A DNA stretch of 64,000 bases from Ischnura elegans. Taxonomy: Eukaryota > Arthropoda > Insecta > Odonata > Coenagrionidae. Location: assembly GCF_921293095.1 (NCBI RefSeq), contig NC_060258.1:5718607-5782606 (forward strand). Direction: 5' to 3'. Numbering within the stretch: position 1 is the first letter of the stretch; each line of letters begins with the position of its first letter. Below, in pieces: positions 16,473 through 64,000 of the stretch. The notes below the pieces were generated by a model. The model made no database searches, was not told where the DNA came from, and was given only the letters and a program-made list of their open reading frames with translations. Position numbers and translations under genes: made by a program.

Positions 16473-16792
16473 AATGAGACATTCGGAGTGGTTTTCCTCC
16501 TTGGAAACACTGAATTAACAGAAGAGAGAGAGATTAGAAATTGATGAAATGAGACATTCGGAGTGGTTTTCCTATTTAGAAACACTGAATTGACAGAAGA
16601 GAGAGAGATTAGAAATTGATGAAATGAGACATTGGGAGTGGTTTTCCTCCTTGGAAACACTGAATTGACAGAAGAGAGAGAGATTAGAAATTGATGAAAT
16701 GAGACATTCGGAGTGGTTTTCCTCCTTGGAAACACTGAATTAACAGAAGAGAGAGAGATTAGAAATTGATGAAATGAGACATTCGGAGTGGT
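16473..16792. repeat. 75-bp minisatellite, left part (about 4 copies)
   Basis: GAGACATTCGGAGTGG recurs every 75 bp (16476, 16551, 16626 and on). Each unit holds a GAGAGAGAGA run. The array stops inside a unit after GAGTGGT at 16792 and resumes at 18207 with the same seven bases, so this block and 18207-21778 were one array. Confidence 0.95.
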
Positions 16793-39210: not shown

Positions 39211-42200
39211 ATGTTTTTTCGTTCAGAACCGAATTCTTCGTTCCAACGTGACATTAATAAAATTACATTCCACACTGCGAGCGAAAATATGATCACGGGA
39301 GTATTCAAATAGCATTGTGTCCTTGTTATAGATCGTATTTAAGCTGTCGCCATGGTTTTCATTAGTTAAACAGGGATTTTTGAGATAGTCTGTTTTCGAC
39401 TCATTTTTAATAACTCTCTATTTGATTCATAAACGACAATACATACATAGGATGTTTGAAGTGTACATCATGACACGGGTTGATTGAAATCGCGTACATT
39501 CCTTTTCAAACAACGTCCTGAAACTACTTCCATTGAAATATTTGACGTTTTTGGGAAAAAGGCGACGGTAATTTTTTCGTTCAGAACCAAATTCTTCGTT
39601 CCAACGTGACATTAATAAAATAACATTCCACACTGCGATCGAAAATATGATCACGACAGCATTGAAATAGCATCGTGTCCTTTTTATAGAACGTATTTAA
39701 TCGACGATACATGCATAGGATGTTTGAAGTGTGCATCATGAAAGGTGATGATTCAAATCGCGTTTAATCCTTCTCAAACAACGTCCTGAAACTACTTCCG
39801 TTGAGATATTTGACGTTTTTGGGAATTAGGTGACAGTCATTTTTTCGTTCAGATCAGAATTCTACGTTCCAACGTGATATTTTTAAAATTGCATTCCACA
39901 CTGCGATCGAAAATATGATCACGACTGCATTGAAATAGTATCGTGTCCTTTTTATAGAACGTATTTAACCTGTCGCCATGGTTTTCGTTAGTTAAACAGG
40001 GATTTTTGAAATAGTCTGATTTTCGACTCTTTTTCAATAACTCTCAATTTGACTCATAAACGACAGTGTATTCACAGGATGTTTGAAGTGATCATTATGA
40101 CGGGTTGATTGAATCGCGTAAATTCCTTCTCAAACAACGTCCTGAAAGTACTTCCGTTGAAATATTTGACGTTTTTGGGAAAATGGCGACAGTCATTTTT
40201 TCGTTCAGAACCGAATTCTTCGTTCCAACGTGACCTTAATAAAATTACATTCCACACTGCGATCGAAAATATGATCACGGGAGCATTCAAATTGCATTGT
40301 GTCCTTGTTGTAGAACGTACTTAAGCTGTCGCCATGGTTTTCGTTAGTTAAACAGGGATTTTTGAAATAGTCTGATTTTCGACTCTTTTTCAATAACTCT
40401 CAATTTGACCCATAAACGACAGTGCATTCACAGGATGTTTGAAGTGATCATTATGACGGGTTGATTGAATCGCGTAAATTCCTTCTCAAACAACGTCCTG
40501 AAAGTACTTCCGTTGAAATATTTGACGTTTTTGGGAAAAAGGCGACGGTAATTTTTTCGTTCAGAACCAAATTCTTCGTTCCAACGTGACATTAATAAAA
40601 TAACATTCCACACTGCGATCGAAAATATGATCACGACAGCATTGAAATAGCATCGTGTCCTTTTTATAGAACGTATTTAAGCTGTCGCCATGGTTTTCGT
40701 TAGTTAAACAGGGATTTTTGAAATAGTCTGATTTTCGACTCTTTTTCAATAACTCTCAATTTGACTCATAAACGACAGTGCATTCACAGGATGTTTGAAG
40801 TGCTCATCATGACACGGGTTGATTGAAATCGCGTAAATTCCTTCTCAAACAACGTCCTTAAACTACTTCCGTTGAAATATTTGACGTTTTTGAGAAAAAG
40901 GCGACGGTCATTTTTTCGTTCAGAACCGAATTCTTCGTTCCAACGTGACATTAATAAAATTACATTCCACGCTGCGATCGAAAATATGATCACGGGAGTA
41001 TTCGAATAGCATTGTTTCCTTGTTATAGAACGTATTTATACAGTCGCCATGGTTTTCGTTAGTTAAACAGGGATTTTTGAGATAGTCTGATTTTCGACTT
41101 TTTTGAATAACTCTCAATTTGATTCATAAACGACGATACATGCATAGGACGTTTGAAGTGTTCATCATGACACGGGTTGATTCAAATCGCGTTTAATCCT
41201 TCTCAAACAACGTCCTGAAACTACTTCCGTTGAGATATTTGACGTTTTTTGGAATTAGGCGACAGTCATTTTTTCGTTCAGATCAGAATTCTACGTTCCA
41301 ACGTGATATTTTTAAAATTGCATTCCACACTGCGATCGAAAATATGATCACGACAGCATTGAAATAGCATCGTGTCCTTTTTATAGAACGTATTTAAGCT
41401 GTCGCCATGGTTTTCGTTAGTTAAACAGGGATTTTTGAAATAGTCTGATTTTCGACTCTTTTTCAATAACTCTCAATTTGACCCATAAACGACAGTGCAT
41501 TCACAGGATGTTTGAAGTGATCATTATGACGGGTTGATTGAATCTCGTAAATTCCTTCTCAAACAACGTCCTGAAAGTACTTCCGTTGAAATATTTGACG
41601 TTTTTGGGAAAATGGCGACAGTCATTTTTTCGTTCAGAACCGAATTCTTCGTTCCAACGTGACCTTAATAAAATTACATTTCACACTGCGATCGACAATA
41701 TGAACACGACAGCTTTGAAATAGCATCGTGTCCTTGTTATAGAACGTATTTAAGCTGTCGCCATGGTTCTCGTTAGTTAAACAGGGATTTTTGAAATAGT
41801 CTGATTTTCGACTCTTTTTCAATAACTCTCAATTTGACTCATAAACGACAGTGCATTCACAGGATGTTTGAAGTGTTCATCATGACACGGGTTGATTGAA
41901 ATCGCGTAAATTCCTCCTCAAACAACGTCCTGAAACTACTTCCGTTGAAATATTTGACGTTTTTGAGAAAAAGGCGACGGTCATTTTTTCGTTCAGAACC
42001 GAATTCTTCGTTCCAACGTGACATTAATAAAATTACATTCCACGCTGCGATGGAAAATATGATCACGGGAGTATTCGAATAGCATTGTGTCCTTGTTATA
42101 GAACGTATTTATACAGTCGCCATGGTTTTCGTTAGTTAAACAGGGATTTTTGAGATAGTCTGATTTTCGACTTTTTTGAATAACTCTCAATTTGATTCAT

Positions 42201-45200
42201 AAACGACGATACATGCATAGGACGTTTGAAGTGTTCATCATGACACGGGTTGATTCAAATCGCGTTCAATCCTTCTCAAACAACGTCCTGAAACTACTTC
42301 CGTTGAGATATTTGACGTTTTTTGGAATTAGGCGACAGTCATTTTTTCGTTCAGATCAGAATTCTACGTTCCAACGTGATATTTTTAAAATTGCATTCCA
42401 CGTTGCGATCGAAAATATGATCACGGGAGCATTCAAATAGCATTGTGTCCTTGTTATAGAACGTATTTATACAGTCGCCATAGTTTTCGTTAGTTAAACA
42501 GGGATTTTTGAAATAGTCTGATTTTCGACTTTTTTGAATAACTCTCAATTTGATTCATAATCGACGATACATGCATAGGATGTTTGAAGTGTGCATCATG
42601 AAAGGTGATGATTCAAATCGCGTTTAATCCTTCTCAAACAACGTCCTGAAACTACTTCCGTTGAGATATTTGACGTTTTTGGGAATTAGGTGACAGTCAT
42701 TTTTTCGTTCAGATCAGAATTCTACGTTCCAACGTGATATTTTTAAAATTGCATTCCACACTGCGATCGAAAATATGATCACGACTGCATTGAAATAGTA
42801 TCGTGTCCTTTTTATAGAACGTATTTAACCTGTCGCCATGGTTTTCGTTAGTTAAACAGGGATTTTTGAAATAGTCTGATTTTCGACTCTTTTTCAATAA
42901 CTCTCAATTTGACTCATAAAAGACAGTGTATTCACAGGATGTTTGAAGTGATCATTATGACGGGTTGATTGAATCGCGTAAATTCCTTCTCAAACAACGT
43001 CCTGAAAGTACTTCCGTTGAAATATTTGACGTTTTTGGGAAAATGGCGACAGTCATTTTTTCGTTCAGAACCGAATTCTTCGTTCCAACGTGACCTTAAT
43101 AAAATTACATTCCACACTGCGATCGAAAATATGATCACGGGAGCATTCAAATTGCATTGTGTCCTTGTTGTAGAACGTACTTAAGCTGTCGCCATGGTTT
43201 TCGTTAGTTAAACAGGGATTTTTGAAATAGTCTGATTTTCGACTCTTTTTCAATAACTCTCAATTTGACCCATAAACGACAGTGCATTCACAGGATGTTT
43301 GAAGTGATCATTATGACGGGTTGATTGAATCGCGTAAATTCCTTCTCAAACAACGTCCTGAAAGTACTTCCGTTGAAATATTTGACGTTTTTGGGAAAAA
43401 GGCGACGGTAATTTTTTCGTTCAGAACCAAATTCTTCGTTCCAACGTGACATTAATAAAATTACATTCCACACTGCGATCGAAAATATGATCACGACAGC
43501 ATTGAAATAGCATCGTGTCCTTTTTATAGAACGTATTTAAGCTGTCGCCATGGTTTTCGTTAGTTAAACAGGGATTTTTGAAATAGTCTGATTTTCGACT
43601 CTTTTTCAATAACTCTCAATTTGACTCATAAACGACAGTGCATTCACAGGATGTTTGAAGTGATCATTATGACGGGTTGATTGAATCGCGTAAATTCCTT
43701 ATCAAACAACGTCCTGAAAGTACTTCCGTTGAAATATTTGACGTTTTTGGGAAAATGGCGACAGTCATTTTTTCGTTCAGAACCGAATTCTTCGTTCCAA
43801 CGTGACCTTAATAAAATTACATTCCACACTGCGATCGACAATATGATCACGACAGCTTTGAAATAGCATCGTGTCCTTGTTATAGAACGTATTTAAGCTG
43901 TCGCAATGGTTTTCGTTAGTTAAACAGGGATTTTTGAAATAGTCTGATTTTCGACTCTTTTTCAATAACTCTCAATTTGAATCATAAACGACAGTGCATT
44001 CACAGGATGTTTGAAGTGTTCATCATGACACGGGTTGATTGAAATCGCGTAAATTCCTTCTCAAACAACGTCCTGAAACTACTTCCGTTGAAATATTTGA
44101 CGTTTTTGAGAAAAAGGCGACGGTCATTTTTTCGTTCAGAACAAAATTCTTCGTTCCAACGTGACATTAATAAAATTACATTCCACGCTGCGATCGAAAA
44201 TATGATCACGGGAGTATTCGAATAGCATTGTTTCCTTGTTATAGAACGTATTTATACAGTCGCCATGGTTTTCGTTAGTTAAACAGGGATTTTTGAGATA
44301 GTCTGATTTTCGACTTTTTTGAATAACTCTCAATTTGATTCATAAACGACGATACATGCATAGGACGTTTGAAGTGTTCATCATGACACGGGTTAATTCA
44401 AATCGCGTTTAATCCTTCTCAAACAACGTCCTGAAACTACTTCCGTTGAGATATTTGACGTTTTTTGGAATTAGGCGACAGTCATTTTTTCGTTCAGATC
44501 AGAATTCTACGTTCCAACGTGATATTTTTAAAATTGCATTCCACACTGCGATGGAAAATATGATCACGACAGCATTGAAATAGCATCGTGTCCTTTTTAT
44601 AGAACGTATTTAAGAGTTCGCCATGGTTTTCGTTAGTTAAACAGGGATTTTTGAAATAGTCTGATTTTCGACTCTTTTTCAATAACTCTCAATTTGACCC
44701 ATAAACGACAGTGCATTCACAGGATGTTTGAAGTGATCATTATGACGGGTTGATTGAATCGCGTAAATTCCTTCTCAAACAACGTCCTGAAAGTACTTCC
44801 GTTGAAATATTTGACGTTTTTGGGAAAATGGCGACGGTCATTTTTTCGTTCAGAACCGAAATCTTCGTTCCAACGTGACATTAATAAAATTACATTCCAC
44901 ACTGCGAGCGAAAATATGATCACGGGAGTATTCAAATAGCATTGTGTCCTTGTTATAGATCGTATTTAAGCTGTCGCCATGGTTTTCGTTAGTTAAACAG
45001 GGATTTTTGAGATAGTCTGTTTTCGACTCATTTTTAATAACTCTCTATTTGATTCATAAAAGACAATACATACATAGGATGTTTGAAGTGTACATCATGA
45101 CACGGGTTGATTGAAATCGCGTAAATTCCTTTTCAAACAACGTCCTGAAACTACTTCCATTGAAATATTTGACGTTTTTGGGAAAAAGGCGGCGGTAATT

Positions 45201-48200
45201 TTTTCGTTCAGAACCAAATTCTTCGTTCCAACGTGACATAAATAAAATAACATTCCACACTGCGATCGAAAATATGATCACGACAGCATTGAAATAGCAT
45301 CGTGTCCTTTTTATAGAACGTATTTAAGCTGTCGCCATGGTTTTCGTTAGTTAAACTGGGATTTTTGAAATAGTCTGATTTTCGACTCTTTTTCAATAAC
45401 TCTCAATTTGACTCATAAACGACAGTGCATTCACAGGATGTTTGAAGTGATCTTTATGACGGGTTGATTGAATCGCGTAAATTCCTTCTCAAACAACGTC
45501 CTGAAAGTACTTCCGTTGAAATATTTGACGTATTTGGTAAAATGGCGACAGTCATTTTTTCGTTCAGAACCGAATTCTTCGTTCCAACGTGACCTTAATA
45601 AAATTACATTCCACACTGAAATCGACAATATGATCACGAAAGCTTTGAAATAGCATCGTGTCCTTGTTATAGAACGTATTAAAGCTGTCGCAATGGTTTT
45701 CGTTAGTTAAACAGGGATTTTTGAAATAGTCTGATTTTCGACTCTTTTTCAATAACTCTCAATTTGACTCATAAACGACAGTGCATTCACAGGATGTTTG
45801 AAGTGCTCATCATTACACGAGTTGATTGAAATCGCGTAAATTCCTTCTCAAACAACGCCCTGAAACTACTTCCGTTGAAATATTTGACGTTTTTGAGAAA
45901 AAGGCGACGGTCATTTTTTCGTTCAGAACCGAATTCTTCGTTCCAACGTGACATTAATAAAATTACATTCCACGCTGCGATCGAAAATATGATCACGGGA
46001 GTATTCGAATAGCATTGTTTCCTTGTTATAGAACGTATTTATACAGTCGCCATGGTTTTCGTTAGTTAAACAGGGATTTTTGAAATAGTCTGATTTTCGA
46101 CTCTTTTTCAATAACTCTCAATTTGACTCATAAACGACAGTGCATTCACAGGATGTTTGAAGTGATCTTTATGACGGGTTGATTGAATCGCGTAAATTCC
46201 TTCTCAAACAACGTCCTGAAAGTACTTCCGTTGAAATATTTGACGTTTTTGGGAAAATGGCGACAGTCATTTTTTCGTTCAGAACCGAATTCTTCGTTCC
46301 AACGTGACCTTAATAAAATTACCTTCCACACTGCGATCGACAATATGATCACGACAGCTTTGAAATAGCATCGTGTCCTTGTTATAGAACGTATTTAAGC
46401 TGTCGCAATGGTTTTCGTTAGTTAAACAGGGATTTTTGAAATAGTCTGATTTTCGACTCTTTTTCAATAACTCTCAATTTGACTCATAAACGACTGTGCA
46501 TTCACAGGATGTTTGAAGTGCTCATCATGACACGGGTTGATTGAAATCGCGTAAATTCCTTCTCAAACAACGTCCTGAAACTACTTCCGTTGAAATATTT
46601 GACGTTTTTGAGAAAAAGGCGACGGTCATTTTTTCGTTCAGAACCGAATTCTTCGTTCCAACGTGACATTAATAAAATTACATTCCACGCTGCGATCGAA
46701 AATATGATCACGGGAGTATTCAAATAGCATTGTGTCCTTGTTATAGAACGTATTTAAGCTGTCGCCATGGTTTTCATTAGTTAAACAGGGATTTTTGAGA
46801 TAGTCTGTTTTCGACTCATTTTTAATAACTCTCTATTTGATTCATAAAAGACAATACATACATAGGATGTTTGAAGTGTACATCATGACACGGGTTGATT
46901 GAAATCGCGTAAATTCCTTTTCAAACAACGTCCTGAAACTACTTCCATTGAAATATTTGACGTTTTTGGGAAAAAGGCGGCGGTAATTTTTTCGTTCAGA
47001 ACCAAATTCTTCGTTCCAACGTGACATAAATAAAATAACATTCCACACTGCGATCGAAAATATGATCACGACAGCATTGAAATAGCATCGTGTCCTTTTT
47101 ATAGAACGTATTTAAGCTGTCGCCATGGTTTTCGTTAGTTAAACTGGGATTTTTGAAATAGTCTGATTTTCGACTCTTTTTCAATAACTCTCAATTTGAC
47201 TCATAAACGACAGTGCATTCACAGGATGTTTGAAGTGATCTTTATGACGGGTTGATTGAATCGCGTAAATTCCTTCTCAAACAACGTCCTGAAAGTACTT
47301 CCGTTGAAATATTTGACGTATTTGGTAAAATGGCGACAGTCATTTTTTCGTTCAGAACCGAATTCTTCGTTCCAACGTGACCTTAATAAAATTACATTCC
47401 ACACTGAAATCGACAATATGATCACGAAAGCTTTGAAATAGCATCGTGTCCTTGTTATAGAACGTATTAAAGCTGTCGCAATGGTTTTCGTTAGTTAAAC
47501 AGGGATTTTTGAAATAGTCTGATTTTCGACTCTTTTTCAATAACTCTCAATTTGACTCATAAACGACAGTGCATTCACAGGATGTTTGAAGTGCTCATCA
47601 TTACACGAGTTGATTGAAATCGCGTAAATTCCTTCTCAAACAACGCCCTGAAACTACTTCCGTTGAAATATTTGACGTTTTTGAGAAAAAGGCGACGGTC
47701 ATTTTTTCGTTCAGAACCGAATTCTTCGTTCCAACGTGACATTAATAAAATTACATTCCACGCTGCGATCGAAAATATGATCACGGGAGTATTCGAATAG
47801 CATTGTTTCCTTGTTATAGAACGTATTTATACAGTCGCCATGGTTTTCGTTAGTTAAACAGGGATTTTTGAAATAGTCTGATTTTCGACTCTTTTTCAAT
47901 AACTCTCAATTTGACTCATAAACGACAGTGCATTCACAGGATGTTTGAAGTGATCTTTATGACGGGTTGATTGAATCGCGTAAATTCCTTCTCAAACAAC
48001 GTCCTGAAAGTACTTCCGTTGAAATATTTGACGTTTTTGGGAAAATGGCGACAGTCATTTTTTCGTTCAGAACCGAATTCTTCGTTCCAACGTGACCTTA
48101 ATAAAATTACATTCCACACTGCGATCGAAAATATGATCACGACAGCATTGAAATAGCATCGTGTCCTTTTTATAGAACGTATTTAAGCTGTCGCCATGGT

Positions 48201-51200
48201 TTTCGTTAGTTAAACAGGGATTTTTGAAATAGTCTGATTTTCGACTCTTTTTCAATAACTCTCAATTTGACTCATAAACGACAGTGCATTCACAGGATGT
48301 TTGAAGTGATCTTTATGACGGGTTGATTGAATCGCGTAAATTCCTTCTCAAACAACGTCCTGAAAGTACTTCCGTTGAAATATTTGACGTTTTTGGGAAA
48401 ATGGCGACAGTCATTTTTTCGTTCAGAACCGAATTCTTCGTTCCAACGTGACCTTAATAAAATTACCTTCCACACTGCGATCGACAATATGATCACGACA
48501 GCTTTGAAATAGCATCGTGTCCTTGTTATAGAACGTATTTAAGCTGTCGCCATGGTTTTCGTTAGTTAAACAGGGATTTTTGAAATAGTCTGATTTTCGA
48601 CTCTTTTTCAATAACTCTCAATTTGACTCATAAACGACAGTGCATTCACAGGATGTTTGAAGTGTTCATCATGACACGGGTTGATTGAAATCGCGTAAAT
48701 TCCTTCTCAAACAACGTCCTGAAACTACTTCCGTTGAAATATTTGACGTTTTTGAGAAAAAGGCGACGGTCATTTTTTCGTTCAGAACAAAATTCTTCGT
48801 TCCAACGTGACATTAATAAAATTACATTCCACGCTGCGATCGAAAATATGATCACGGGAGTATTCGAATAGCATTGTGTCCTTGTTAAAGAACGTATTTA
48901 AGCTGTCGCCATGGTTTTCGTTAGTTAAACAGGGATTTTTGAGATAATCTGATTTTCGACTTTTTTGAATAACTCTCAATTTGATTCATAAACGACGATA
49001 CATGCATAGGACGTTTGAAGTGTTCATCATGACACGGGTTAATTCAAATCGCGTTTAATCCTTCTCAAACAACGTCCTGAAACTACTTCCGTTGAGATAT
49101 TTGACGTTTTTTGGAATTAGGCGACAGTCATTTTTTCGTTCAGATCAGAATTCTACGTTCCAACGTGATATTTTTAAAATTGCATTCCACACTGCGATGG
49201 AAAATATGATCACGACAGCATTGAAATAGCATCGTGTCCTTTTTATAGAACGTATTTAAGAGTTCGCCATGGTTTTCGTTAGTTAAACAGGGATTTTTGA
49301 AATAGTCTGATTTTCGACTCTTTTTCAATAACTCTCAATTTGACCCATAAACGACAGTGCATTCACAGGATGTTTGAAGTGATCATTATGACGGGTTGAT
49401 TGAATCGCGTAAATTCCTTCTCAAACAACGTCCTGAAAGTACTTCCGTTGAAATATTTGACGTTTTTGGGAAAATGGCGACGGTCATTTTTTCGTTCAGA
49501 ACCGAAATCTTCGTTCCAACGTGACATTAATAAAATTACATTCCACACTGCGAGCGAAAATATGATCACGGGAGTATTCAAATAGCATTGTGTCCTTGTT
49601 ATAGATCGTATTTAAGCTGTCGCCATGGTTTTCATTAGTTAAACAGGGATTTTTGAGATAGTCTGTTTTCGACTCATTTTTAATAACTCTCTATTTGATT
49701 CATAAAAGACAATACATACATAGGATGTTTGAAGTGTACATCATGACACGGGTTGATTGAAATCGCGTAAATTCCTTTTCAAACAACGTCCTGAAACTAC
49801 TTCCATTGAAATATTTGACGTTTTTGGGAAAAAGGCGGCGGTAATTTTTTCGTTCAGAACCAAATTCTTCGTTCCAACGTGACATAAATAAAATAACATT
49901 CCACACTGCGATCGAAAATATGATCACGACAGCATTGAAATAGCATCGTGTCCTTTTTATAGAACGTATTTAAGCTGTCGCCATGGTTTTCGTTAGTTAA
50001 ACTGGGATTTTTGAAATAGTCTGATTTTCGACTCTTTTTCAATAACTCTCAATTTGACTCATAAACGACAGTGCATTCACAGGATGTTTGAAGTGATCTT
50101 TATGACGGGTTGATTGAATCGCGTAAATTCCTTCTCAAACAACGTCCTGAAAGTACTTCCGTTGAAATATTTGACGTATTTGGTAAAATGGCGACAGTCA
50201 TTTTTTCGTTCAGAACCGAATTCTTCGTTCCAACGTGACCTTAATAAAATTACCTTCCACACTGCGATCGACAATATGATCACGACAGCTTTGAAATAGC
50301 ATCGTGTCCTTGTTATAGAACGTATTTAAGCTGTCGCCATGGTTTTCGTTAGTTAAACAGGGATTTTTGAAATAGTCTGATTTTCGACTCTTTTTCAATA
50401 ACTCTCAATTTGAATCATAAACGACAGTGCATTCACAGGATGTTTGAAGTGTTCATCATGACACGGGTTGATTGAAATCGCGTAAATTCCTTCTCAAACA
50501 ACGTCCTGAAACTACTTCCGTTGAAATATTTGACGTTTTTGGGAAAATGGCGACAGTCATTTTTTCGTTCAGAACCGAATTCTTCGTTCCAACGTGACAT
50601 TAATAAAATTACATTCCACGCTGCGATCGAAAATATGATCACGGGAGTATTCGAATAGCATTGTTTCCTTGTTATAGAACGTATTTATACAGTCGCCATG
50701 GTTTTCGTTAGTTAAACAGGGATTTTTGAGATAGTCTGATTTTCGACTTTTTTGAATAACTCTCAATTTGATTCATAAACGACGATACATGCATAGGACG
50801 TTTGAAGTGTTCATCATGACACGGGTTAATTCAAATCGCGTTTAATCCTTCTCAAACAACGTCCTGAAACTACTTCCGTTGAGATATTTGACGTTTTTGG
50901 GAATTAGGCGACAGTCATTATTTCGTTCAGATCAGAATTCTACGTTCCAACGTGATATTTTTAAAATTGCATTCCACACTGCGATGGAAAATATGATCAC
51001 GACAGCATTGAAATAGCATCGTGTCCTTTTTATAGAACGTATTTAAGAGTTCGCCATGGTTTTCGTTAGTTAAACAGGGATTTTTGAAATAGTCTGATTT
51101 TCGACTCTTTTTCAATAACTCTCAATTTGACCCATAAACGACAGTGCATTCACAGGATGTTTGAAGTGATCATTATGACGGGTTGATTGAATCGCGTAAA

Positions 51201-54200
51201 TTCCTTCTCAAACAACGTCCTGAAAGTACTTCCGTTGAAATATTTGACGTTTTTGGGAAAATGGCGACGGTCATTTTTTCGTTCAGAACCGAATTCTTCG
51301 TTCCAACGTGACCTTAATAAAATTACCTTCCACACTGCGATCGACAATATGATCACGACAGCTTTGAAATAGCATCGTGTCCTTGTTATAGAACGTATTT
51401 AAGCTGTCGCCATGGTTTTCGTTAGTTAAACAGGCATTTTTGAAATAGTCTGATTTTCGACTCTTTTTCAATAACTCTCAATTTGAATCATAAACGACAG
51501 TGCATTCACAGGATGTTTGAAGTGTTCATCATGACACGGGTTGATTGAAATCGCGTAAATTCCTTCTCAAACAACGTCCTGAAACTACTTCCGTTGAAAT
51601 ATTTGACGTTTTTGAGAAAAAGGCGACGGTCATTTTTTCGTTCAGAACCGAAATCTTCGTTCCAACGTGACATTAATAAAATTACATTCCACACTGCGAG
51701 CGAAAATATGATCACGGGAGTATTCAAATAGCATTGTGTCCTTGTTATAGATCGTATTTAAGCTGTCGCCATGGTTTTCATTAGTTAAACAGGGATTTTT
51801 GAGATAGTCTGTTTTCGACTCATTTTTAATAACTCTCTATTTGATTCATAAAAGACAATACATACATAGGATGTTTGAAGTGTACATCATGACACGGGTT
51901 GATTGAAATCGCGTAAATTCCTTTTCAAACAACGTCCTGAAACTACTTCCATTGAAATATTTGACGTTTTTGGGAAAAAGGCGGCGGTAATTTTTTCGTT
52001 CAGAACCAAATTCTTCGTTCCAACGTGACATAAATAAAATAACATTCCACACTGCGATCGAAAATATGATCACGACAGCATTGAAATAGCATCGTGTCCT
52101 TTTTATAGAACGTATTTAAGCTGTCGCCATGGTTTTCGTTAGTTAAACTGGGATTTTTGAAATAGTCTGATTTTCGACTCTTTTTCAATAACTCTCAATT
52201 TGACTCATAAACGACAGTGCATTCACAGGATGTTTGAAGTGATCTTTATGACGGGTTGATTGAATCGCGTAAATTCCTTCTCAAACAACGTCCTGAAAGT
52301 ACTTCCGTTGAAATATTTGACGTATTTGGTAAAATGGCGACAGTCATTTTTTCGTTCAGAACCGAATTCTTCGTTCCAACGTGACCTTAATAAAATTACA
52401 TTCCACACTGAAATCGACAATATGATCACGAAAGCTTTGAAATAGCATCGTGTCCTTGTTATAGAACGTATTAAAGCTGTCGCAATGGTTTTCGTTAGTT
52501 AAACAGGGATTTTTGAAATAGTCTGATTTTCGACTCTTTTTCAATAACTCTCAATTTGACTCATAAACGACAGTGCATTCACAGGATGTTTGAAGTGCTC
52601 ATCATTACACGAGTTGATTGAAATCGCGTAAATTCCTTCTCAAACAACGCCCTGAAACTACTTCCGTTGAAATATTTGACGTTTTTGAGAAAAAGGCGAC
52701 GGTCATTTTTTCGTTCAGAACCGAATTCTTCGTTCCAACGTGACATTAATAAAATTACATTCCACGCTGCGATCGAAAATATGATCACGGGAGTATTCGA
52801 ATAGCATTGTTTCCTTGTTATAGAACGTATTTAAGCTGTCGCCATGGTTTTCGTTAGTTAAACAGGGATTTTTGAAATAGTCTGATTTTCGACTCTTTTT
52901 CAATAACTCTCAATTTGACTCATAAACGACAGTGCATTCACAGGATGTTTGAAGTGATCTTTATGACGGGTTGATTGAATCGCGTAAATTCCTTCTCAAA
53001 CAACGTCCTGAAAGTACTTCCGTTGAAATATTTGACGTTTTTGGGAAAATGGCGACAGTCATTTTTTCGTTCAGAACCGAATTCTTCGTTCCAACGTGAC
53101 CTTAATAAAATTACCTTCCACACTGCGATCGACAATATGATCACGACAGCTTTGAAATAGCATCGTGTCCTTGTTATAGAACGTATTTAAGCTGTCGCAA
53201 TGGTTTTCGTTAGTTAAACAGGGATTTTTGAAATAGTCTGATTTTCGACTCTTTTTCAATAACTCTCAATTTGACTCATAAACGACAGTGCATTCACAGG
53301 ATGTTTGAAGTGCTCATCATGACACGGGTTGATTGAAATCGCGTAAATTCCTTCTCAAACAACGTCCTGAAACTACTTCCGTTGAAATATTTGACGTTTT
53401 TGAGAAAAAGGCGACGGTCATTTTTTCGTTCAGAACCGAATTCTTCGTTCCAACGTGACATTAATAAAATTACATTCCACGCTGCGATCGAAAATATGAT
53501 CACGGGAGTATTCAAATAGCATTGTGTCCTTGTTATAGATCGTATTTAAGCTGTCGCCATGGTTTTCGTTAGTTAAACAGGGATTTTTGAGATAGTCTGT
53601 TTTCGACTCATTTTTAATAACTCTCAATTTGATTCATAAAAGACAATACATACATAGGATGTTTGAAGTGTACATCATGACACGGGTTGATTGAAATCGC
53701 GTAAATTCCTTTTCAAACAACGTCCTGAAAGTACTTCCGTTGAAATATTTGACGTTTTTGGGAAAAAGGCGGCGGTAATTTTTTCGTTCAGAACCAAATT
53801 CTTCGTTCCAACGTGACATAAATAAAATAACATTCCACACTGCGATCGAAAATATGATCACGACAGCATTGAAATAGCATCGTGTCCTTTTTATAGAACG
53901 TATTTAAGCTGTCGCCATGGTTTTCGTTAGTTAAACTGGGATTTTTGAAATAGTCTGATTTTCGACTCTTTTTCAATAACTCTCAATTTGACTCATAAAC
54001 GACAGTGCATTCACAGGATGTTTGAAGTGATCTTTATGACGGGTTGATTGAATCGCGTAAATTCCTTCTCAAACAACGTCCTGAAAGTACTTCCGTTGAA
54101 ATATTTGACGTATTTGGTAAAATGGCGACAGTCATTTTTTCGTTCAGAACCGAATTCTTCGTTCCAACGTGACCTTAATAAAATTACATTCCACACTGCG

Positions 54201-56130
54201 ATCGACAATATGATCACGAAAGCTTTGAAATAGCATCGTGTCCTTGTTATAGAACGTATTTAAGCTGTCGCAATGGTTTTCGTTAGTTAAACAGGGATTT
54301 TTGAAATAGTCTGATTTTCGACTCTTTTTCAATAACTCTCAATTTGACTCATAAACGACAGTGCATTCACAGGATGTTTGAAGTGCTCATCATGACACGG
54401 GTTGATTGAAATCGCGTAAATTCCTTCTCAAACTACGTCCTGAAACTACTTCCGTTGAAATATTTGACGTTTTTGAGAAAAAGGCGACGGTCATTTTTTC
54501 GTTCAGAACCGAATTCTTCGTTCCAACGTGACATTAATAAAATTACATTCCACGCTGCGATCGAAAATATGATCACGGGAGTATTCGAATAGCATTGTTT
54601 CCTTGTTATAGAACGTATTTATACAGTCGCCATGGTTTTCGTTAGTTAAACAGGGATTTTTGAAATAGTCTGATTTTCGACTCTTTTTCAATAACTCTCA
54701 ATTTGACTCATAAACGACAGTGCATTCACAGGATGTTTGAAGTGATCTTTATGACGGGTTGATTGAAATCGCGTAAATTCCTTCTCAAACAACGTCCTGA
54801 AAGTACTTCCGTTGAAATATTTGACGTTTTTGGGAAAATGGCGACAGTCATTTTTTCGTTCAGAACCGAATTCTTCGTTCCAACGTGACCTTAATAAAAT
54901 TACCTTCCACACTGCGATCGACAATATGATCACGACAGCTTTGAAATAGCATCGTGTCCTTGTTATAGAACGTACTTAAGCTGTCGCCATGGTTTTCGTT
55001 AGTTAAACAGGGATTTTTGAAATAGTCTGATTTTCGACTCTTTTTCAATAACTCTCAATTTGACTCATAAACGACTGTGCATTCACAGGATGTTTGAAGT
55101 GCTCATCATGACACGGGTTGATTGAAATCGCGTAAATTCCTTCTCAAACAACGTCCTGAAACTACTTCCGTTGAAATATTTGACGTTTTTGAGAAAAAGG
55201 CGACGGTCATTTTTTCGTTCAGAACCGAATTCTTCGTTCCAACGTGACATTAATAAAATTACATTCCACACTGCGATCGAAAATATGATCACGGGAGTAT
55301 TCAAATAGCATTGTGTCCTTGTTATAGATCGTATTTAAGCTGTCGCCATGGTTTTCGTTAGTTAAACAGGGATTTTTGAGATAGTCTGTTTTCGACTCAT
55401 TTTTAATAACTCTCAATTTGATTCATAAAAGACAATACATACATAGGATGTTTGAAGTGTACATCATGACACGGGTTGATTGAAATCGCGTAAATTCCTT
55501 TTCAAACAACGTCCTGAAACTACTTCCATTGAAATATTTGACGTTTTTGGGAAAAAGGCGGCGGTAATTTTTTCGTTCAGAACCAAATTCTTCGTTCCAA
55601 CGTGACATAAATAAAATAACATTCCACACTGCGATCGAAAATATGATCACGACAGCATTGAAATAGCATCGTGTCCTTTTTATAGAACGTATTTAAGCTG
55701 TCGCCTCGGTTTTCGTTAGTTAAACTGGGATTTTTGAAATAGTCTGATTTTCGACTCTTTTTCAATAACTCTCAATTTGACTCATAAACGACAGTGCATT
55801 CACAGGATGTTTGAAGTGATCTTTATGACGGGTTGATTGAATCGCGTAAATTCCTTCTCAAACAACGTCCTGAAAGTACTTCCGTTGAAATATTTGACGT
55901 ATTTGGTAAAATGGCGACAGTCATTTTTTCGTTCAGAACCGAATTCTTCGTTCCAACGTGACCTTAATAAAATTACATTCCACACTGCGATCGACAATAT
56001 GATCACGAAAGCTTTGAAATAGCATCGTGTCCTTGTTATAGAACGTATTTAAGCTGTCGCAATGGTTTTCGTTAGTTAAACAGGGATTTTTGAAATAGTC
56101 TGATTTTCGACTCTTTTTCAATAACTCTCA
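39211..56130. repeat. Satellite of about 357 bp with five-monomer higher-order repeat
   Basis: The first partial unit starts near TTTTTTCGTTCAGAACCG (39211). Landmark CAGGATGTTTGAAGTG then recurs about every 357 bp to 56130, about 47 units. One unit near 39430-39700 lacks about 88 bp. A monomer class marked by GACAATACATACATAGG recurs at 45054, 46842, 49700, 51846, 53634 and 55423: spacings 1788, 2858, 2146, 1788 and 1789, equal to 5, 8, 6, 5 and 5 monomers. Blocks near 39700-40800 and 42560-43660 are almost identical at 2,860 bp. Every unit has open frames of 61-82 codons on both strands; these follow from the repeat and are not genes. Confidence 0.96.
56128..56130. other. Left target-site duplication TCA
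   Basis: The satellite reads AACTCTCA up to the element. The same TCA follows the element at 63540-63542, and uninterrupted units have a single AACTCTCAATTTGAC. This is a clean 3-bp duplication, as expected for PIF/Harbinger. Confidence 0.93.
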
Positions 56131-56155
56131 GGCCCGTATTGTCAGTCGCGCCTTC
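56131..56155 (+). repeat. Left terminal inverted repeat of Harbinger
   Basis: 25 bases, beginning GGCCCGTATTGTCAGT and ending CGCCTTC, are exactly complementary to 63515-63539. Beyond them the two ends stay similar (CGACCTTC on both, offset by one base). This is the expected site of transposase cleavage. Confidence 0.95.
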
Positions 56156-56318
56156 AAGGCGACCTTCACCTTCTAACCCTCCTTCTGGAGAGATTTCATA
56201 TTGAGAGACGCTCCTTTCCTCCTATAGGAGGCGACTGTGGCCTTCGATTAGAAGCATACCCTGGGCTATGCTTCTAATACGAGAAGGCCTCCAACCATAG
56301 CAACAGTACCTAAATAAC

Positions 56319-59300
56319 ATGGCGGAATTATTTGATCGCGATGAACACCTCGATGATTTTATTGAATATATTTTCGACAATCCTTATAACTACATACCTC
56401 GGCGATACATAAGAGATAGGCAAAATCCAGTAGAATATTACTCGGAAGGGGAATTTATGACCAGGTACAGGTTTTCGAAGAGAACAGTGATTGATGTACT
56501 GCTACCCATGATAGCATTGCAAAACATCAGCAACCGTGGAATGCCTGTCCCACCAATATTGAAATTATTGACGGCCCTGCGATTTTTTGCCACCGGCAGC
56601 TTTCAGGTAAGTGAAATAAAGTTTCCTTTTGATATGGTAGTATTTAGCGTGTTTGTAAGATGGAAATAATTGTAGAGTTGGTTGATTTATTCAGCTTGTA
56701 GCCGTATTGTTTACTATTCGAAATTTTGTTTACATTGACAAAGCACTTCAAATGACCTGAATGCACTCGTAGTAATTATTGTTTGGTGTTAACGAATAAT
56801 GTTATGATGCATAGATGATATTCGCATTCATTTTCGTTAGTTTTCCCCGTCTAAAGAAACCATTTTGTCGATTGCAGTTGGTCTGTGCTGACCTTCTTCA
56901 AGTATCTCAACCGTCTGTTTCGCAGATCTTGAAGGTAAGTTGTTTGTGATCATTAATGGCTTTTTTATACTATTTAAAAATTGTGGAACGAACTTTACAA
57001 AGGAAACGTCAATTCAAATTGTGCTCCTTCGTCGAACAGTTACGGGTAACAGAATTCTGCTGTCCTTGACGTAACACGGTGAACACGGTAAACATCACAT
57101 TAGAAAATAAATTGGGATGCCTTTTGTTGGGCTAACGTAACGCGTGTTTTCATTTCACGGTCAGACTTACATCGCCTGAGAAAACTGCATTAATTACTCA
57201 TTTATGAAAGATTTAAAAGAATTCTAATGGTAAAGTATTGCATGGGAGACCGGTTATGAGCAGTAGGTACAGTCGTGTGGAGTGATTTTCGTTGTTTATG
57301 TTTTCATTACGCCTTTTTGTATGCTGAGATTTTCGCTCTCAAAGAAGTATGTATACTACCATAATGGAAAGAGTTGTTGTTGACATTTAATGAGAGAGAG
57401 AGTTGGTGATGACATCAAAATACATATTTTCGTGTGTTTTAACTCTGTGCTACGTGCATCGATTTTATTGCTTCATCAATTTTTATATTAATATAGCCGA
57501 TTACTTTTCAAAGCGTTATGATTAGTTTTTACTTGTCCAATAGTTGTCAGTATTCGTAATTATCTATTATTGCTATTCCTGATCGTTATTTCAACTTATA
57601 ACTAATGAAGAGTTTGATGTTAGTGTATTTCGTTCGCGCACATTTACGTTTTGTTGAAACTTTTCGTGGATGACACTTGATATTAAATTGTGAGAAGATA
57701 CATGTGGATACTTTTTATCACAATTATCTTATAAAGTCCTCAAGTGTAGTAATGTATAAGTAGTTTATTAACAAAAATATGTGCTTTAAATTCCACTTTA
57801 GAATGTCAGTGCAGAACTAGCTGCTAAGCTGCCGTTGTGGGTGAAAAGACCGTCGACTGAGGAAGAATTTGCAGCTATCAGAAATAGTTTCTATGCAATA
57901 GCTAATTTTCCTGGCGTGGTGGGATGCATCGACTGTACCCACATTCCCATTAAAAGCCCTGGAGGTGACCTGGCAGAGGTTTATAGGAACAGGAAAGGAT
58001 GGTTCTCCATGAACGTTCAGGTATTGCATTGCTTGTAGAAAACAATACTGTTACATGGAAATTAAGTTTCTACATATATAAATTACTTTTGCATCCATTA
58101 ATAATGTAATAATCCTTTTGTAATTCATAGGCTGCCTTCTTTTGTAATCTCATAGTGTCTTCTTTGTAGGTTGTGGTGGGACCATCCATGGAAATTATGG
58201 ATATTGTTTGCAGATGGCAGGGATCCGTGCATGATGCACGTATATTCCATAACAGTAGGCTTAAGCACAGATTTGAAGCTGGGCAGATGCGAGGAATCCT
58301 TCTAGGGGATAGTGGTTATCCATTACTTCCTTATTTATTCACACCAGTTTTACATCCTACAACTGGTCCTGAAAGGCGGTAAATATTCCTATTAATTATG
58401 ATTTGTATGTTTCTCTGTACCTTGGGCGTATTTTTTCAGTTATCTATATTTATCATTCATGCTATTATGTTAGATAGAGTTTTTTTTAGAGTATGTAGGG
58501 AGACTATTTAATTGTAATCCTTGTTAATGGTGGTAGTGATGACCTTTTATGCCATGGCACGCTGTTTTTCTCTTACATAGATGCAATAACAATGCTTAAA
58601 AATAAAATGGCATAGTGAAAAAAAATTATTGGAAAAGTGCAAATGAAACAGATCATATCAGCTGTAGTTGAGTACTATATTCAGAAAGGTATTCATACTG
58701 TCTTATACACTTTGACTTATTGTCTCTATGATAACAAGGTAAATGTACCACTGCCTGGCTAAGATAGGTTTATTCAAGTCTTACGATGCTTACACTTAAA
58801 GGAACAGTTCATGCATTTCATATCCATTTTAAAAGAGGTACACAACTGGTTTAAAACTTTTTTTTGAGAGTTTTCTTTACGACCATATAGAATTAAAATA
58901 CATATTATTTATCTTTCTTTTGAAATGGGCTTGAATTAGGTAATCCTTTTCCTGACCCTAAAAATTCTGTATGTGTTTTTAAATCTGATCCTTGATGCTC
59001 TAGTATTGCTTGATGATCTACTCATAGTCATTGCTGAAATAAGATATCCTAGGCCATGTTTGGTATCTTGTTAATTGTTTTAATCTTTTTAAGGACAAAT
59101 TCTTTATAATAGGTAACAAAAAATTGGCAATGTTTAATGGTTTATTTGAGTTTTTTTAATTTCAATTAATGCTTCACTCGTGTGTTTGTCTCACAGACAT
59201 TTAAACAGACTTTAGAAAAACCTGTGATGATCATGATATTACTTAAAATCAAGTGTTTAAGTTCATTCCAAGTTGATCTCCAATAAGAGAATGAAGTGCA

Positions 59301-60351
59301 TTCATGATTGAATAAAATAATACCTAACAGACTTGTTGCATATGAAAAATTATTAGATGTAATCAATTTGAATTACCACTTTACCACTCATTATTTTATT
59401 AGGGATGCTAAATAACTACCTACTAAACACACATTTTGAAGTGAATATTGCTTAATAATCTCAGATCGATGGTTGACGATGTCACTTTGTGGAAGTTCAT
59501 AGATAGCAATGATACAATCAGCTATAATAATTTTCCACACTATTATGTCATGTGTGAAATTTTCATCAACCCATAGATAAATTTTCTCCCAGTCTGATCA
59601 GCAAAAATTATAATCATTTGTGTTACATCTCATGAAATAAACACTACCATTTCTTCATCATTAATGGGATCTTTAGAATTAAAAAACAATTTATTGGTAG
59701 TGATAGGGTAAACTTAACGACCTTTTCAATACTGCCATTCATTTAATGCATGCGCAATGGGAATCCATCCTTCCTCACATGCATTAAACATTATACCTAT
59801 CCTTATTATTGATGCAAAGTAACAACTTTATAATATTTTATCCAAATCACTGAATGAAAGTTTAATATTGTAATTCTTCTTATGTTTAGATACAACACCT
59901 CGCACATCAGGACCAGGAGCATCGTTGAGAGGACGTTTGGGATTTGGAAGCGGAGATTCCCATGCCTCTCAACGAAGCTTAGGACGAAATTGTCAACCTC
60001 CCTGAAAGTGATCTTGGCTTGTGCAGTTCTACATAATGTAGCTGTACGTCATCATGCCCCTATTCCTGATCAGGAGCGCGTGATACCTGTGGTTGATGTT
60101 CCTGTTCATGTGTATAGGGCTCATAATGGTCGTGGAGCTGCAGAAAGAGCTGCACTAATCCAGAGACACTTTTCAGAGGTAAGTGTGAATGGCTTTGCTG
60201 CAATAAATAAGTTTCATGTTAACTGTCTTTCAATATATTCTAATTCTGGGAGAGTTAATTCATGAAATTTTCAATTATCCTCACTTAATAACTAGGAAAT
60301 AATATGTTTCTGTGTTTTAATATTCTTCTATTTGCATTACAGGAGGGTTGA
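56319..60351 (+). CDS. Harbinger DDE transposase (HARBI1-like), six exons
   Basis: Spliced model: 56319-56606, 56878-56934, 57802-58020, 58170-58378, 59890-60178, 60343-60351, total 356 aa, close to the roughly 350 aa of HARBI1. All five introns are GT-AG with good sites (for example CAG/GTAAGT at 56606) and the frame is kept throughout. Exon 1 has the family N-terminal region ending LTALRFFATGSFQ. Exon 2 gives a helix-turn-helix-like LLQVSQPSVSQILK. The DDE fold follows: GCIDCTHI (D159), GSVHDARIF, LLGDSGYP (D235), RSIVERTFG (E271) and KRRFPCL. All three catalytic acids are present and no stop interrupts it. The start is the first ATG in a good context (AACATGG). It cuts at the inverted repeats and inserts at 3-bp targets, normally with the Myb-like partner encoded downstream on the other strand. 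Confidence 0.92.
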
Positions 60352-61919
60352 CAGCTGGTGTGAATAAGTAAGTCAGTAATGGATACCACAGTCTTCCTAA
60401 CATTTGTCCAGGATCAGATATGTGCTTCAGCTGCTGTTATGGATATTGTGCTTCATGGATGGACCCCTGCTGTTTGCAGACATCTCCATAGTTTCTATTC
60501 CTGTTCCTTTAAGCCGATGCCTGTTGCTTTGCCTCCTAGTCTTTTAATGGGAATTTGTCAGGGAAATTAGCTGTTGCATGGAGACATTTCTGATGGCTGT
60601 GAATTCCTCTTCTGTCAAGTCTTTTCCCCATGGTCATCAGTGATTCTAATATTGCTGGTACAGGCATTCCACTGCTATTCATGGTAGCTGTGCATCAGTC
60701 ACTGTCTCTCTGAAATCCTATACCATCATAAGTTCCCTTTCCGAGTATTATCTACTGGTTTTCACCTTCTCTTATGTATTGCTGAGCTGAGTTGTAAGGA
60801 TTGTTGAATTTATATTTAATGAAATCATTGAGGTTGTTCTATTATAATAAAAAACAAATTACAGTTAACTGCAGTGTTTTTGTTGGCCCATGTTGGCTCC
60901 CTTTCTGATGACATTAACCATTGGCACGATGATTTTTTTCTTTTAAGTTGGATGATTATAGTAGATATAGCTAATACTGCATATTTCTTTATCAAAATTG
61001 TTCATTTTGTAACCTTTCATTTTTTCCTTGCTGCCGTATATTGCTGAAAGGTTTCGAAAAAGGAAAGTTGCTTTCCTGGGTAGAAAAGTGGGATTAACAA
61101 AGAATGAAAGACTTTTCAGTACATTTCACTACTGTTCCATTTAATGAAAAAATAAGTTTACAGAATAATATTTTAAAAGACAGCTGGTTACATAAATTAT
61201 TAAAAATAGGGATATAATAGAGAATATTAGGACAGATTATGTGACGCTGAATGAGAAGGTACGATGCTGGTCTTATACAACTGAGGAAGACATGGGAGGA
61301 GGATATAAGCGGCAGGAAACCCAATGGAACCCTGCATTGGAAATAGCCATGATCCACAAGAACACCATCAGTAACATCCTGCAGAGAGAGAGAGTTCCAG
61401 GACAGCAGAATGGAGCTGGCCATGCAAAGGTGGCAACAGGAGCACTACTTCTCCTAAAAATGGGGAAAATTTATAATTAGTTGAAATATTAATATTCAAA
61501 AAATGTTGCTTGCTAAATCATCCCATTATAAGTGAAAATACTTTCTTCAACCAACATATGTGCATGCATTTTAACATTACTATAATCATTGATTTTCATT
61601 TCTTTGAATGCGACATCGTCCTTTGCATCTATTTCATAGGAACTATGCAATATTCATTTAATAAGTAAACATGGAAAGGAATCGATATCACAGCCTGTCT
61701 CAAATACGGATATTATTGTAGTGAAGGCATTTATGAAGGAAAAGATAAATGAAGCCTGAAGCCATATTTCCATTGATGTTAACACATTAAATTCACAACA
61801 AACATTGGCAAAGATATGGACTTGAGAAACAAAATTTTCATTCTAATTCCTTTTAAATTTGTTTTAAAATACCATACAGAAATTATTACCCTGACAACTT
61901 CTACCACTAAAGTACAAAA
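60352..61919. other. Region between the two Harbinger genes
   Basis: Contains the presumed 3' untranslated parts. A 63-codon plus frame at 60379-60570 has no domain character. Around 61290-61470 the composition becomes gene-like: one plus frame reads DMGGGYKRQETQW, and an overlapping shifted one reads EREFQDSRMELAMQRWQQEHYFS to a stop. This resembles the charged C-terminal tail of a Myb/SANT-type protein, but the frames do not join. It may be a decayed coding fragment. Confidence 0.4.
60846..60851 (+). terminator. Probable polyadenylation signal of the transposase gene
   Basis: AATAAA about 500 nt past the transposase stop, in an AT-rich stretch on the coding strand. It is the first good hexamer I see, but a 3' end there is not proven. 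Confidence 0.4.
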
Positions 61920-63119
61920 TCAAATAATGGTAAAGCAAACCATCATCTGGCGCAACTCCTGCTCCTTAATCTTTATTTGGATTTCATCCATTCTTTTTTG
62001 GTGCGCCAGAGCCTGCTCCTGCTGCAGCCTTTGCAGTCTCAAGACCTCCAACTGCAGATTCTGTGTATCTTCGTCTAGCTTCACTTTCCGCAGTTGGAAG
62101 TCATTGATCAGCTTGGCTGTGGCCAGCTCCACTTGTGCTGTTTCTTGCCTGAGGGCTTGAATCTTATCGCGGTGTGCGTTGTAAGATTTCAAGCCCTCAA
62201 GCCGGTCCTGCAACTCTCTCTCTACAGCAGCTCCTCTGGTCATGCCACCAGAGGAGGATGGTGTCCTTGTCGGACCTCCCATCACTGTCGTGGCACACGG
62301 AACATCTGACGGTGGAGCCTCGACTACTTTGAAAAGAAAAAAGAAAAAGTTATTGTATAATTTCGATAACGACAGGTAATGTATTACCACAAACAATATC
62401 GCACATACTTACTTGTTGGATACTCCAGTTCCGTGTGCCCACTGCTCGCGTTGGGGATAGGAGGCGAGTCCAGGAGATCGTCGTCCATATCCCCAACATT
62501 CTGCTCACAGTGTGACAGTGATGGGATGGCTATTTCCAACTCAGGGTTGGGATCGCACACTGGCGGTACATATGGCCCACCGCCTGTGGCCAACCTCCGC
62601 TGGGTTTCCTGAGCCTGGGCCTTCCTCCTCTTCGTTTTCACGTTGTCCCATGCCTTCCTCAGTTGCTTCCAATTTCGCTATTAAAGTGAAATTCACTTCC
62701 GTTAAACAAAGAGTACTTCCTACATCGCCGCATATATTTTTTCGCACATCATCGGCATTTCACTTTTACGCGCTATGCATAAAACTACATCGGAAACATT
62801 GTGTCTTATTAAAAATTTAACTAAGTTAAAAATATATATTATTTTAATGCACTATAACACACTTTGTCATTTAATAACAACATTGCTATGAGCAAGTAAT
62901 ACAATAGATTACTAATGCGCACGACCAGCCAATAACTCTAGTATTACCTACCTTCACGACTTGAGAATTTCCGTTAAATTCAGCTTCAATGTTTCTCCAG
63001 CCTCGTATCTTATCAGACAACGTCACAGCATCTGTCCTTTTATTCTCTATTATATCCCTATTTTTAATAACTAACGCTACCAGCAAATCTTTTTCCACAA
63101 CCGTCATCCTCGACTCCAT
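61920..63119 (-). CDS. Harbinger Myb/SANT-like DNA-binding partner protein, three exons
   Basis: Minus-strand spliced model: 63119-62952, 62677-62413, 62326-61920, total 279 aa. Donors are GTAGGT and GTAAGT; acceptors end TAATAG and CAAAG; phases match. Residues 5-90 fit the trihelix Myb/SANT-like domain: LLVALVIKNRDIIENKR, then KIRGWRNIEAEFN, then QLRKAWDNVKTKRRK and TGGGP, with the spaced tryptophans of the family. A proline- and acid-rich linker follows (about 95-145). The C-terminal part from about residue 175 to the end is a long charged and leucine/glutamine-rich segment (VERELQDRLEGL, LQLEVLRLQRLQQEQ), predicted as coiled coil. In this superfamily the partner binds subterminal DNA and helps bring the transposase into the nucleus and onto the ends. 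The open frame supports an autonomous element. Confidence 0.9.
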
Positions 63120-63514
63120 TCTGATTGCGTCTGTCTATTTCTGCGTGATTAGTTTTCCGATTGATTGAATTTTGATTGTTATTGCGAGGGAACACCAATA
63201 ATTAGTAATTACAACCTATTCAGGTGCAGCAAAGAAAAGCGAAAATATAATTAACATTGTCCCTCGAACAATTGGACCTACAGTCACTGTCGCGGCACAC
63301 GGAATAATTCGATTTTAATTAACTTCGAAATGGGCGGCAACCTTATTTACCTCCGTAACGCTTCGCTTTTTTCTGGCCGAGTGAACGGATCAGTCCGTGA
63401 ACGTAAACAATATCTCCTTCTAATCGAAGGCGAAGGCGACAATAGAGAAGGACGGACTCTCGAACTGACTGGCTTCCTTTTAGGTGAAGGTCACCTAGAT
63501 AGAAGGTCGCGATA

Positions 63515-63539
63515 GAAGGCGCGACTGACAATACGGGCC
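63515..63539 (-). repeat. Right terminal inverted repeat of Harbinger
   Basis: Exact reverse complement of 56131-56155. Inside it lie further GAAGG motifs (63425-63519) that mirror the CCTTC motifs at the left end. Confidence 0.95.
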
Positions 63540-64000
63540 TCAATTTGACTCATAAACGACAGTGCATTCACAGGATGTTTGAAGTGCTCATCATGACACG
63601 GGTTGATTGAAATCGCGTAAATTCCTTCTCAAACAACGTCCTGAAACTACTTCCGTTGAAATATTTGACGTTTTTGAGAAAAAGGCGACGGTCATTTTTT
63701 CGTTCAGAACCGAATTCTTCGTTCCAACGTGACATTAATAAAATTACATTCCACGCTGCGATCGAAAATATGATCACGGGAGTATTCGAATAGCATTGTT
63801 TCCTTGTTATAGAACGTATTTATACAGTCGCCATGGTTTTCGTTAGTTAAACAGGGATTTTTGAGATAGTCTGATTTTCGACTTTTTTGAATAACTCTAA
63901 ATTTGATTCATAAACGACGATACATGCATAGGACGTTTGAAGTGTTCATCATGACACGGGTTAATTCAAATCGCGTTTAATCCTTCTCAAACAACGTCCT
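63540..64000. repeat. 357-bp satellite resuming after the Harbinger insertion
   Basis: Starts with the duplicated TCA and continues ATTTGACTCATAAACGAC, the exact continuation of the unit cut at 56130. It runs to the window end, so the array extends beyond it. The frame and phase show that nothing but the transposon and 3 bp was added. Confidence 0.96.

Follow-up and report, generated by a model that had tools for sequence, protein, structure and literature searches.

A recently transposed PIF/Harbinger element of Ischnura elegans with candidate fold-back messages

Why DNA transposons spare their hosts from burn-out is an old question. Antisense-RNA self-limitation occurs in bacterial insertion sequences, and in eukaryotes antisense restraint is known from chance derivatives, such as Mu killer. 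A transposon that lies within a satellite array on chromosome 13 of Ischnura elegans bears on this question in two ways. A preliminary description, made from its letters alone, regarded it as a structurally intact, young and possibly active PIF/Harbinger element; it also carries antisense copies of its own genes, which are absent from that description. The window analysed here is the whole stretch of 64,000 bases around it (positions 5,718,607–5,782,606 of the chromosome).

Ends, insertion site and genes

The element and its surroundings are laid out as follows:
56131..63539, plus strand: complete PIF/Harbinger element of family A, 7,409 bp (copies and ends compared)
56131..56155, plus strand: left terminal inverted repeat, 25 bp
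63515..63539, minus strand: right terminal inverted repeat, 25 bp
56128..56130: target site duplication TCA, left
63540..63542: target site duplication TCA, right
39710..56130, resuming after 63540, plus strand: 356-bp satellite array around the insertion

The preliminary description had reported perfect 25-bp inverted repeats, a clean 3-bp duplication and a pre-insertion site visible in dozens of satellite units, and all three are borne out. The two ends are identical at 25 of 25 bases, with the first mismatch at position 26, and TCA stands on both sides. The empty, joined site of 28 bases occurs 47 times in the window at up to three mismatches (23 of these being exact), against a mean of 0.00 in 100 shuffles. 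The TCA duplication is unlike the TWA expected for PIF/Harbinger; among the seven full-length copies described below a 3-bp duplication is present in six, and it is TWA in five; one copy (C9a) has no clean duplication. None of the seven shows the CWG duplication of NuwaI or the AT duplication of ISL2EU. Arrival by cut-and-paste at a TCA in the chromosome-13 satellite is the best explanation for the window copy.

Among the matches listed, the 356-bp satellite (39430–56130 and beyond in the window) is confined to chromosome 13 and the small contigs C51, C59, C63, C68 and C110, and the arrays to the left of the window are on the opposite strand. The window also holds two stretches of a 75-bp tandem repeat (16473–16792 and 18207–21778), with 95–96% matches and a period that is a multiple of three. 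In the accessible part of one report, the locus for female colour morphs maps to a chromosome-13 scaffold that is unlocalised, and transposable elements are described as enriched along that chromosome (PMC10781644).

Two genes were modelled within the element:
56319..56606, plus strand: transposase exon 1
56878..56934, plus strand: transposase exon 2
57802..58020, plus strand: transposase exon 3, with D159 (assigned by motif)
58170..58378, plus strand: transposase exon 4, with D235 (assigned by motif)
59890..60178, plus strand: transposase exon 5, with E271 (missing in whole or in large part from copies C4, C3 and C1)
60343..60351, plus strand: transposase exon 6, coding part (Glu-Gly-stop)
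62952..63119, minus strand: Myb/SANT exon 1
62413..62677, minus strand: Myb/SANT exon 2
61920..62326, minus strand: Myb/SANT exon 3

The six transposase exons, separated by GT-AG introns, give a frame of 356 amino acids free of internal stops. The spliced product matches the Pfam profile DDE_Tnp_4 at 117.1 bits (cut-off 24.8) over 158 of 158 profile positions, where the single exons that match it reach 17.8, 38.7 and 40.2 bits. D159, D235 and E271 are all present in this frame and inside the Pfam match, and I take them to be the catalytic triad, on the strength of their motif; with that proviso, the earlier claim of a stop-free transposase with all DDE acids holds. The full Myb/SANT partner that had been claimed is also found, with three exons on the minus strand, 279 amino acids and a Myb_DNA-bind_5 score of 56.4 bits (cut-off 21.7). 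Among solved structures, the transposase has no convincing relative (three matches, all dehalogenases, best E 0.078), and the best match of the Myb protein is zeste (E 0.027). Between family A and its relative A2 the transposase shows a dN of 0.13 and a dS of 0.66, and is therefore constrained. Judged by its sequence, the element is structurally autonomous.

Copies in the genome and recent transposition

I searched the genome (110 contigs, 1,722,721,009 bases) with the element and obtained at least 136 matching pieces. These include at least seven full-length copies with both ends, namely the window copy (C13), C9b at 15.96 Mb (C9:15962902-15970310), C9a at 6.07 Mb, C19 (the X, going by its length), C4, C3 and C1. 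The flanks of all seven differ, and their duplications are TCA for the window copy, TTA for C9b, C19, C4 and C1, TAA for C3, and unclean for C9a.

C9b is a near-perfect twin of the window copy, with one difference in 7,409 bases. At this position, 59432, A is found only in C9b, C in the window copy and four others, and the base is deleted in C1. The flanks of the twin are unrelated to those of the window copy and its duplication is a different one (TTA), which makes transposition, and not the copying of a segment, its origin; a segmental duplication of the satellite was rejected as its origin on the same grounds. Amplification of the array carrying the element along is likewise unsupported, as the other six full-length copies stand in unrelated flanks. 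Transposition of family A is, by this sequence comparison, recent. Insect genomes mutate at about 2.8e-9 per site and generation, and with this rate the window copy and C9b would have split roughly 24,000 generations ago, with a wide error.

The preliminary description expected many near-identical copies. That expectation is borne out in part: one full-length copy is the near-identical twin, and the five remaining ones diverge by 1.3–2.9%. It had also considered that all other copies might be decayed, and they are not: the transposase frame is open in three of the seven (C13, C9b and C19), and the Myb frame in all seven, its end lying in five of them four codons beyond that of the window copy. 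The twin one base away at another locus, together with two open genes, supports the view of a young, intact and possibly active PIF/Harbinger element, as far as sequence can indicate.

The broken transposase frames have several causes. C9a has a one-base frame break, C4 a stop and the loss of most of exon 5, while C3 and C1 lack exon 5, C3 having in addition Asn in place of the first Asp. The exon-5 deletions of C4, C3 and C1 (59921–60236; 59853–60194; 59838–59987 with 59999–60214) have different junctions, one with filler. They fall within 59838–60236 of the window and hit the exon that carries the catalytic E, while the Myb frame of these copies is open. They adjoin the midpoint of the element, as interrupted gap repair would produce, and may be its traces. 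Over 60931–62130 (element 4801–6000) the window copy differs by 3.6–8.5% from C9a, C19, C4 and C3 but by 0.5–1.3% from C1, against about 1–3% in most other 400-base bins between copies. By these sequence differences, the family A copies look like mosaics of two lineages.

The 22-base end of the terminal inverted repeat, searched genome-wide at up to three mismatches, gave 147 matches, versus 2 for a reversed-pattern control. Many of the matches listed are paired 1.4–1.9 kb apart, and the one pair that was read (L033, C4:91163330-91164822) is a 1.5-kb element with TAA flanks, one end of which is 99% like family A2. At another locus (L011, C2:49383988-49384026, about 1488–1591) the right and left ends of the family abut one another head to head, having lost some bases and enclosing no element, a join that resembles a relic of aberrant excision or a circle junction. 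For COX1, 37 of the 43 nuclear matches among those listed have internal TGA codons, as expected of numts.

Antisense arms downstream of both genes

Alignment of the element to itself in reverse revealed two further features:
60333..60852, plus strand: conserved block comprising the end of intron 5 and then the modelled terminal exon/3'UTR, antisense to exons 1, 3 and 4
61183..61444, minus strand (the Myb-like sequence itself reads plus): Myb antisense arm, downstream of the Myb gene

The first matches the transposase exons without their introns, and the second matches the Myb exons. The two genes are convergent, which places each arm downstream of the gene it copies. The transposase arm fits the modelled terminal exon (60343–60852) closely, beginning at the exon 6 acceptor and ending at an AATAAA (60846–60851). 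The Myb arm lies just before a minus-strand ATTAAA (61140–61145), but a second ATTAAA (61657–61662) comes earlier on that strand, past the Myb stop and ahead of the arm, and in family B, introduced below, the Myb strand of locus L048 has several polyadenylation-type signals in the corresponding interval. The Myb message may therefore end before its arm; it may also have a further intron. The case for a fold-back message is stronger for the transposase than for Myb.

The transposase arm is present in all seven full-length copies of family A, which were aligned across this stretch. Its identity to the coding region of its own family, in pairwise aligned columns, is 81.4% in A, 82.4% in A2 and 83.3% in B, and its sequence is that of a copy of the family's own exons, thinned by deletions. 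For Myb, gene and own arm agree at 83.3% of 258 columns in family A and at 89.7% of 290 in family B, and a match across families is all but absent. That the transposase block is a coding gene was rejected: its reverse frames are broken by stops, and many of the gaps between A and A2 are not multiples of three. Cryptic splicing behind the 262–383 gap in the arm is unlikely, as this gap starts with CG and ends with TG.

The transposase arm recurs in two related families. Family A2 (L042, 77.7% protein identity to A) has the transposase arm at the same place; the 7 kb analysed at this locus showed no Myb gene. In family B, represented by L048 (about 7.7 kb, with TTA as its duplication and 60.8% protein identity), both arms are present, and that of the transposase fills the terminal exon from acceptor to AATAAA. 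Across loci, the transposase arm is clear in nine of eleven in family B (L048, L049, L051–L056 and L058), partial in L059 and was not found in L057; in A2 it is present in L042, partial in L062 and was not found in L063. Among the other lineages searched for a transposase arm, none was found in L050, L061 and the more distant L066, L067, L068 and L069; in L060, of a fourth lineage, 86 bp of exon 4 occur in antisense orientation at 91%. The Myb arm was searched in A, L048 and L049. In the transposase tree, the placement of family B lacks support (0.33), and A and B may or may not be sister families. L066, L067 and L069 belong to another Harbinger group of the same genome (44–50% protein identity), in which a Myb-like match lies on the other strand and antisense arms are absent; L066 and L067 are apparently intronless.

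The transposase arm is conserved between A and A2 where the introns mostly are not. The arm blocks of these two families align end to end, at 71.0% over 511 columns (z 76), while for introns 1, 3 and 4 (z 1.6, 0.0 and 1.1) and for the sequence following exon 5 the scores do not exceed those of shuffles; intron 2 aligns weakly (z 4.3). In A numbering, with B shifted by 27, one gap of the transposase arm spans 254–383 in A, 259–376 in A2 (with a 24-base piece aligned inside) and 248–372 in B, and a second spans 539–582 in both A and A2 and 553–576 in B. Only these two gaps coincide, roughly, between A and B, and the others do not; from this, the arms are probably, though not certainly, older than the split of A and B.

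Alternatively, the arms could have been made anew in each family after the split, by the capture of spliced antisense copies, with nothing maintaining them since. This would explain why each arm matches its own gene and lacks introns, and the 86-bp piece in L060 and the arm gaps that differ between A and B are in keeping with it. It sits badly with the two gaps at about the same places in all three families and with the end-to-end alignment of the A and A2 arms, and it requires the same layout to arise for two genes in two families. I consider it quite improbable.

Coupled change, probable RNA pairing and possible self-restraint

How have the arms stayed so close to their own genes? A four-way MAFFT alignment of genes and tails from A and A2, 509 columns long, gives own identities of 74.9% for A and 72.9% for A2, below the 81–82% of pairwise alignments with free gapping, and cross-family identities of 67.0% and 69.0%. 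Duplex energies are likewise stronger within families (-588, -574 and -573 kcal/mol) than between (-277 to -465 kcal/mol). Of 93 sites with a difference between the genes of A and A2, 29 have each tail agreeing with its own gene and 3 have each tail agreeing with the other's (p 2.6e-6). The 29 coupled sites are unclustered, with 13 adjacent and 12.7 expected. Such coupled changes are equally expected from gene conversion, and conversion of a whole arm would not be tract-like either.

Read as RNA pairs, the mismatches between gene and arm comprise 75 G.U versus 26 A.C (p 1.1e-6; BLAST segments from A and B, both genes, the A2 mismatches of 28 G.U and 10 A.C being left out as kin of A). The G.U excess is found in all five other settings (1.8- to 4.3-fold, p 0.036 to 2e-11), and persists after correction for base content (p 1e-4). 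Singleton changes between copies have no such bias, at 75 to 74; the count covers the transposase unit, with its coding parts as well as its arm, and draws on six copies of A, without the twin, and on eight loci of B, from which L051 and L059 are left out. The singletons speak against mutation bias as the source of the wobble excess, but changes on the active lineages (6 to 4) are too few to settle that question. Within B, A.C mismatches number 5–6 in the intact loci L048, L052 and L058 and 6–12 in the broken L053–L056, with G.U at 25–29 throughout. Taken by itself, Myb has no significant bias toward wobble (p 0.13 in A and p 0.38 in B), and one setting gave 5 to 6 for B.

These counts bear on an account in which an old inverted duplication left the arms behind as relics, and these are kept gene-like solely by gene conversion during gap repair, the hairpin being useless and the element an ordinary young Harbinger. 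Conversion accounts for both the own-gene matching and the coupled changes, and the mosaic copies indicate that recombination between copies occurs. Paired codons are not slower at synonymous sites (dS 0.82, against 0.55), so the coding arms show no slowdown; the coupled sites have no transition excess (p 0.25), and lineage-specific changes in the arm only, taken from the four-way alignment, lean weakly toward wobble (33 to 23, p 0.23). Conversion alone gives no cause for an excess of 75 to 26 where singletons stand at 75 to 74, and it would need to act exon by exon while sparing the coinciding gaps. I regard this account as unlikely. My reading of the sequences is that the tail would track the gene by compensatory change, by conversion, or by both, with RNA pairing as what is kept.

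The gene models predict a long inverted repeat within a single transcript. In predicted folds of coding region and arm, family A has 443 gene-tail pairs and -865 kcal/mol (mean with shuffled tails -536), A2 has 403 pairs and -827 kcal/mol (-544), and B has 443 pairs and -775 kcal/mol (-501), with ten shuffled tails per family as controls. With G.U counted as a pair, family A has 7 stems that run unbroken for at least 19 pairs, A2 has 1 and B has 2.

From these models, the following mechanism can be proposed. The mature transposase and Myb messages would carry the antisense arms as 3' tails, and would fold into long hairpins of coding region against tail. Selection for RNA pairing would hold the arms complementary, the tail following changes in the coding region. 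The hairpin could then reduce the output of transposase and Myb, either through dicing into siRNAs that target the messages of the element itself, or through a hold on export or translation. Overall, I favour a recently transposed, autonomous element with selected fold-back mRNAs, whose likeliest use would be self-restraint, and give this reading a probability of roughly 0.6. Self-restraint as the use of the hairpin, taken by itself, is plausible at somewhat less than even odds. The fullest version would be an autonomous animal transposon with an antisense brake in both mRNAs, its complementarity kept by compensatory evolution since before the two families diverged, dosing its own activity through fold-back RNA or siRNAs; this I put forward tentatively, as a possibility nearer one chance in three.

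A selected hairpin could also serve as a shield, hiding the message from host piRNAs or siRNAs, or stabilising a long message. The pairing evidence serves this explanation as well as it does a brake. Deletions have thinned the arms and mismatches interrupt them, and the few stems of 19 pairs or more would suit a shield: such interrupted stems would be poor Dicer substrates, and they count somewhat against efficient dicing. Long hairpins are expected to slow mRNA export and translation, and one of this length would exact that cost from a shield too. It would be odd for a selfish element to keep a restraining device for so long, which counts against self-restraint. A shield seems to me rather improbable, and my order of preference for the use of the hairpin, a brake, then a shield, then none, is speculative. 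An element in which antisense copies stand right behind both genes, and which bears signs of compensatory evolution, would open self-restraint to direct test. For assays, it also provides an animal Harbinger that is intact in structure and has moved recently.

Among the papers listed from the open-access literature, which covers neither Repbase nor most subscription journals, none was recognised as describing self-antisense arms of this kind. The accessible part of a survey of the PHIS superfamily gives an average of about 4.1 kb for candidate autonomous PIF/Harbinger members (PMC4482050). The element shares with that group, as described there, a DDE_Tnp_4 transposase, a separate Myb/SANT protein, terminal inverted repeats and 3-bp duplications, mostly TWA among the copies of this family, and is unlike it in its 7.4 kb, the TCA of the window copy and the antisense gene copies downstream of both genes (PMC4482050). 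In maize, Mu killer carries a transposase gene duplicated in inverted orientation, and its hairpin RNA, in the portion of the report available, is proposed to feed transposon-silencing siRNAs; it is a separate derivative locus that silences in trans, whereas here the inverted copy lies within the autonomous element and its own modelled mRNA (PMC3440606). Drosophila hpRNAs are similar in being inverted repeats homologous to the genes they regulate, but are, in the excerpt consulted, separate loci acting on other genes, whereas here coding region and arm share one predicted transcript (PMC10317233). The transposon itself is of a known type, and its candidate self-antisense tails appear to be what is new.
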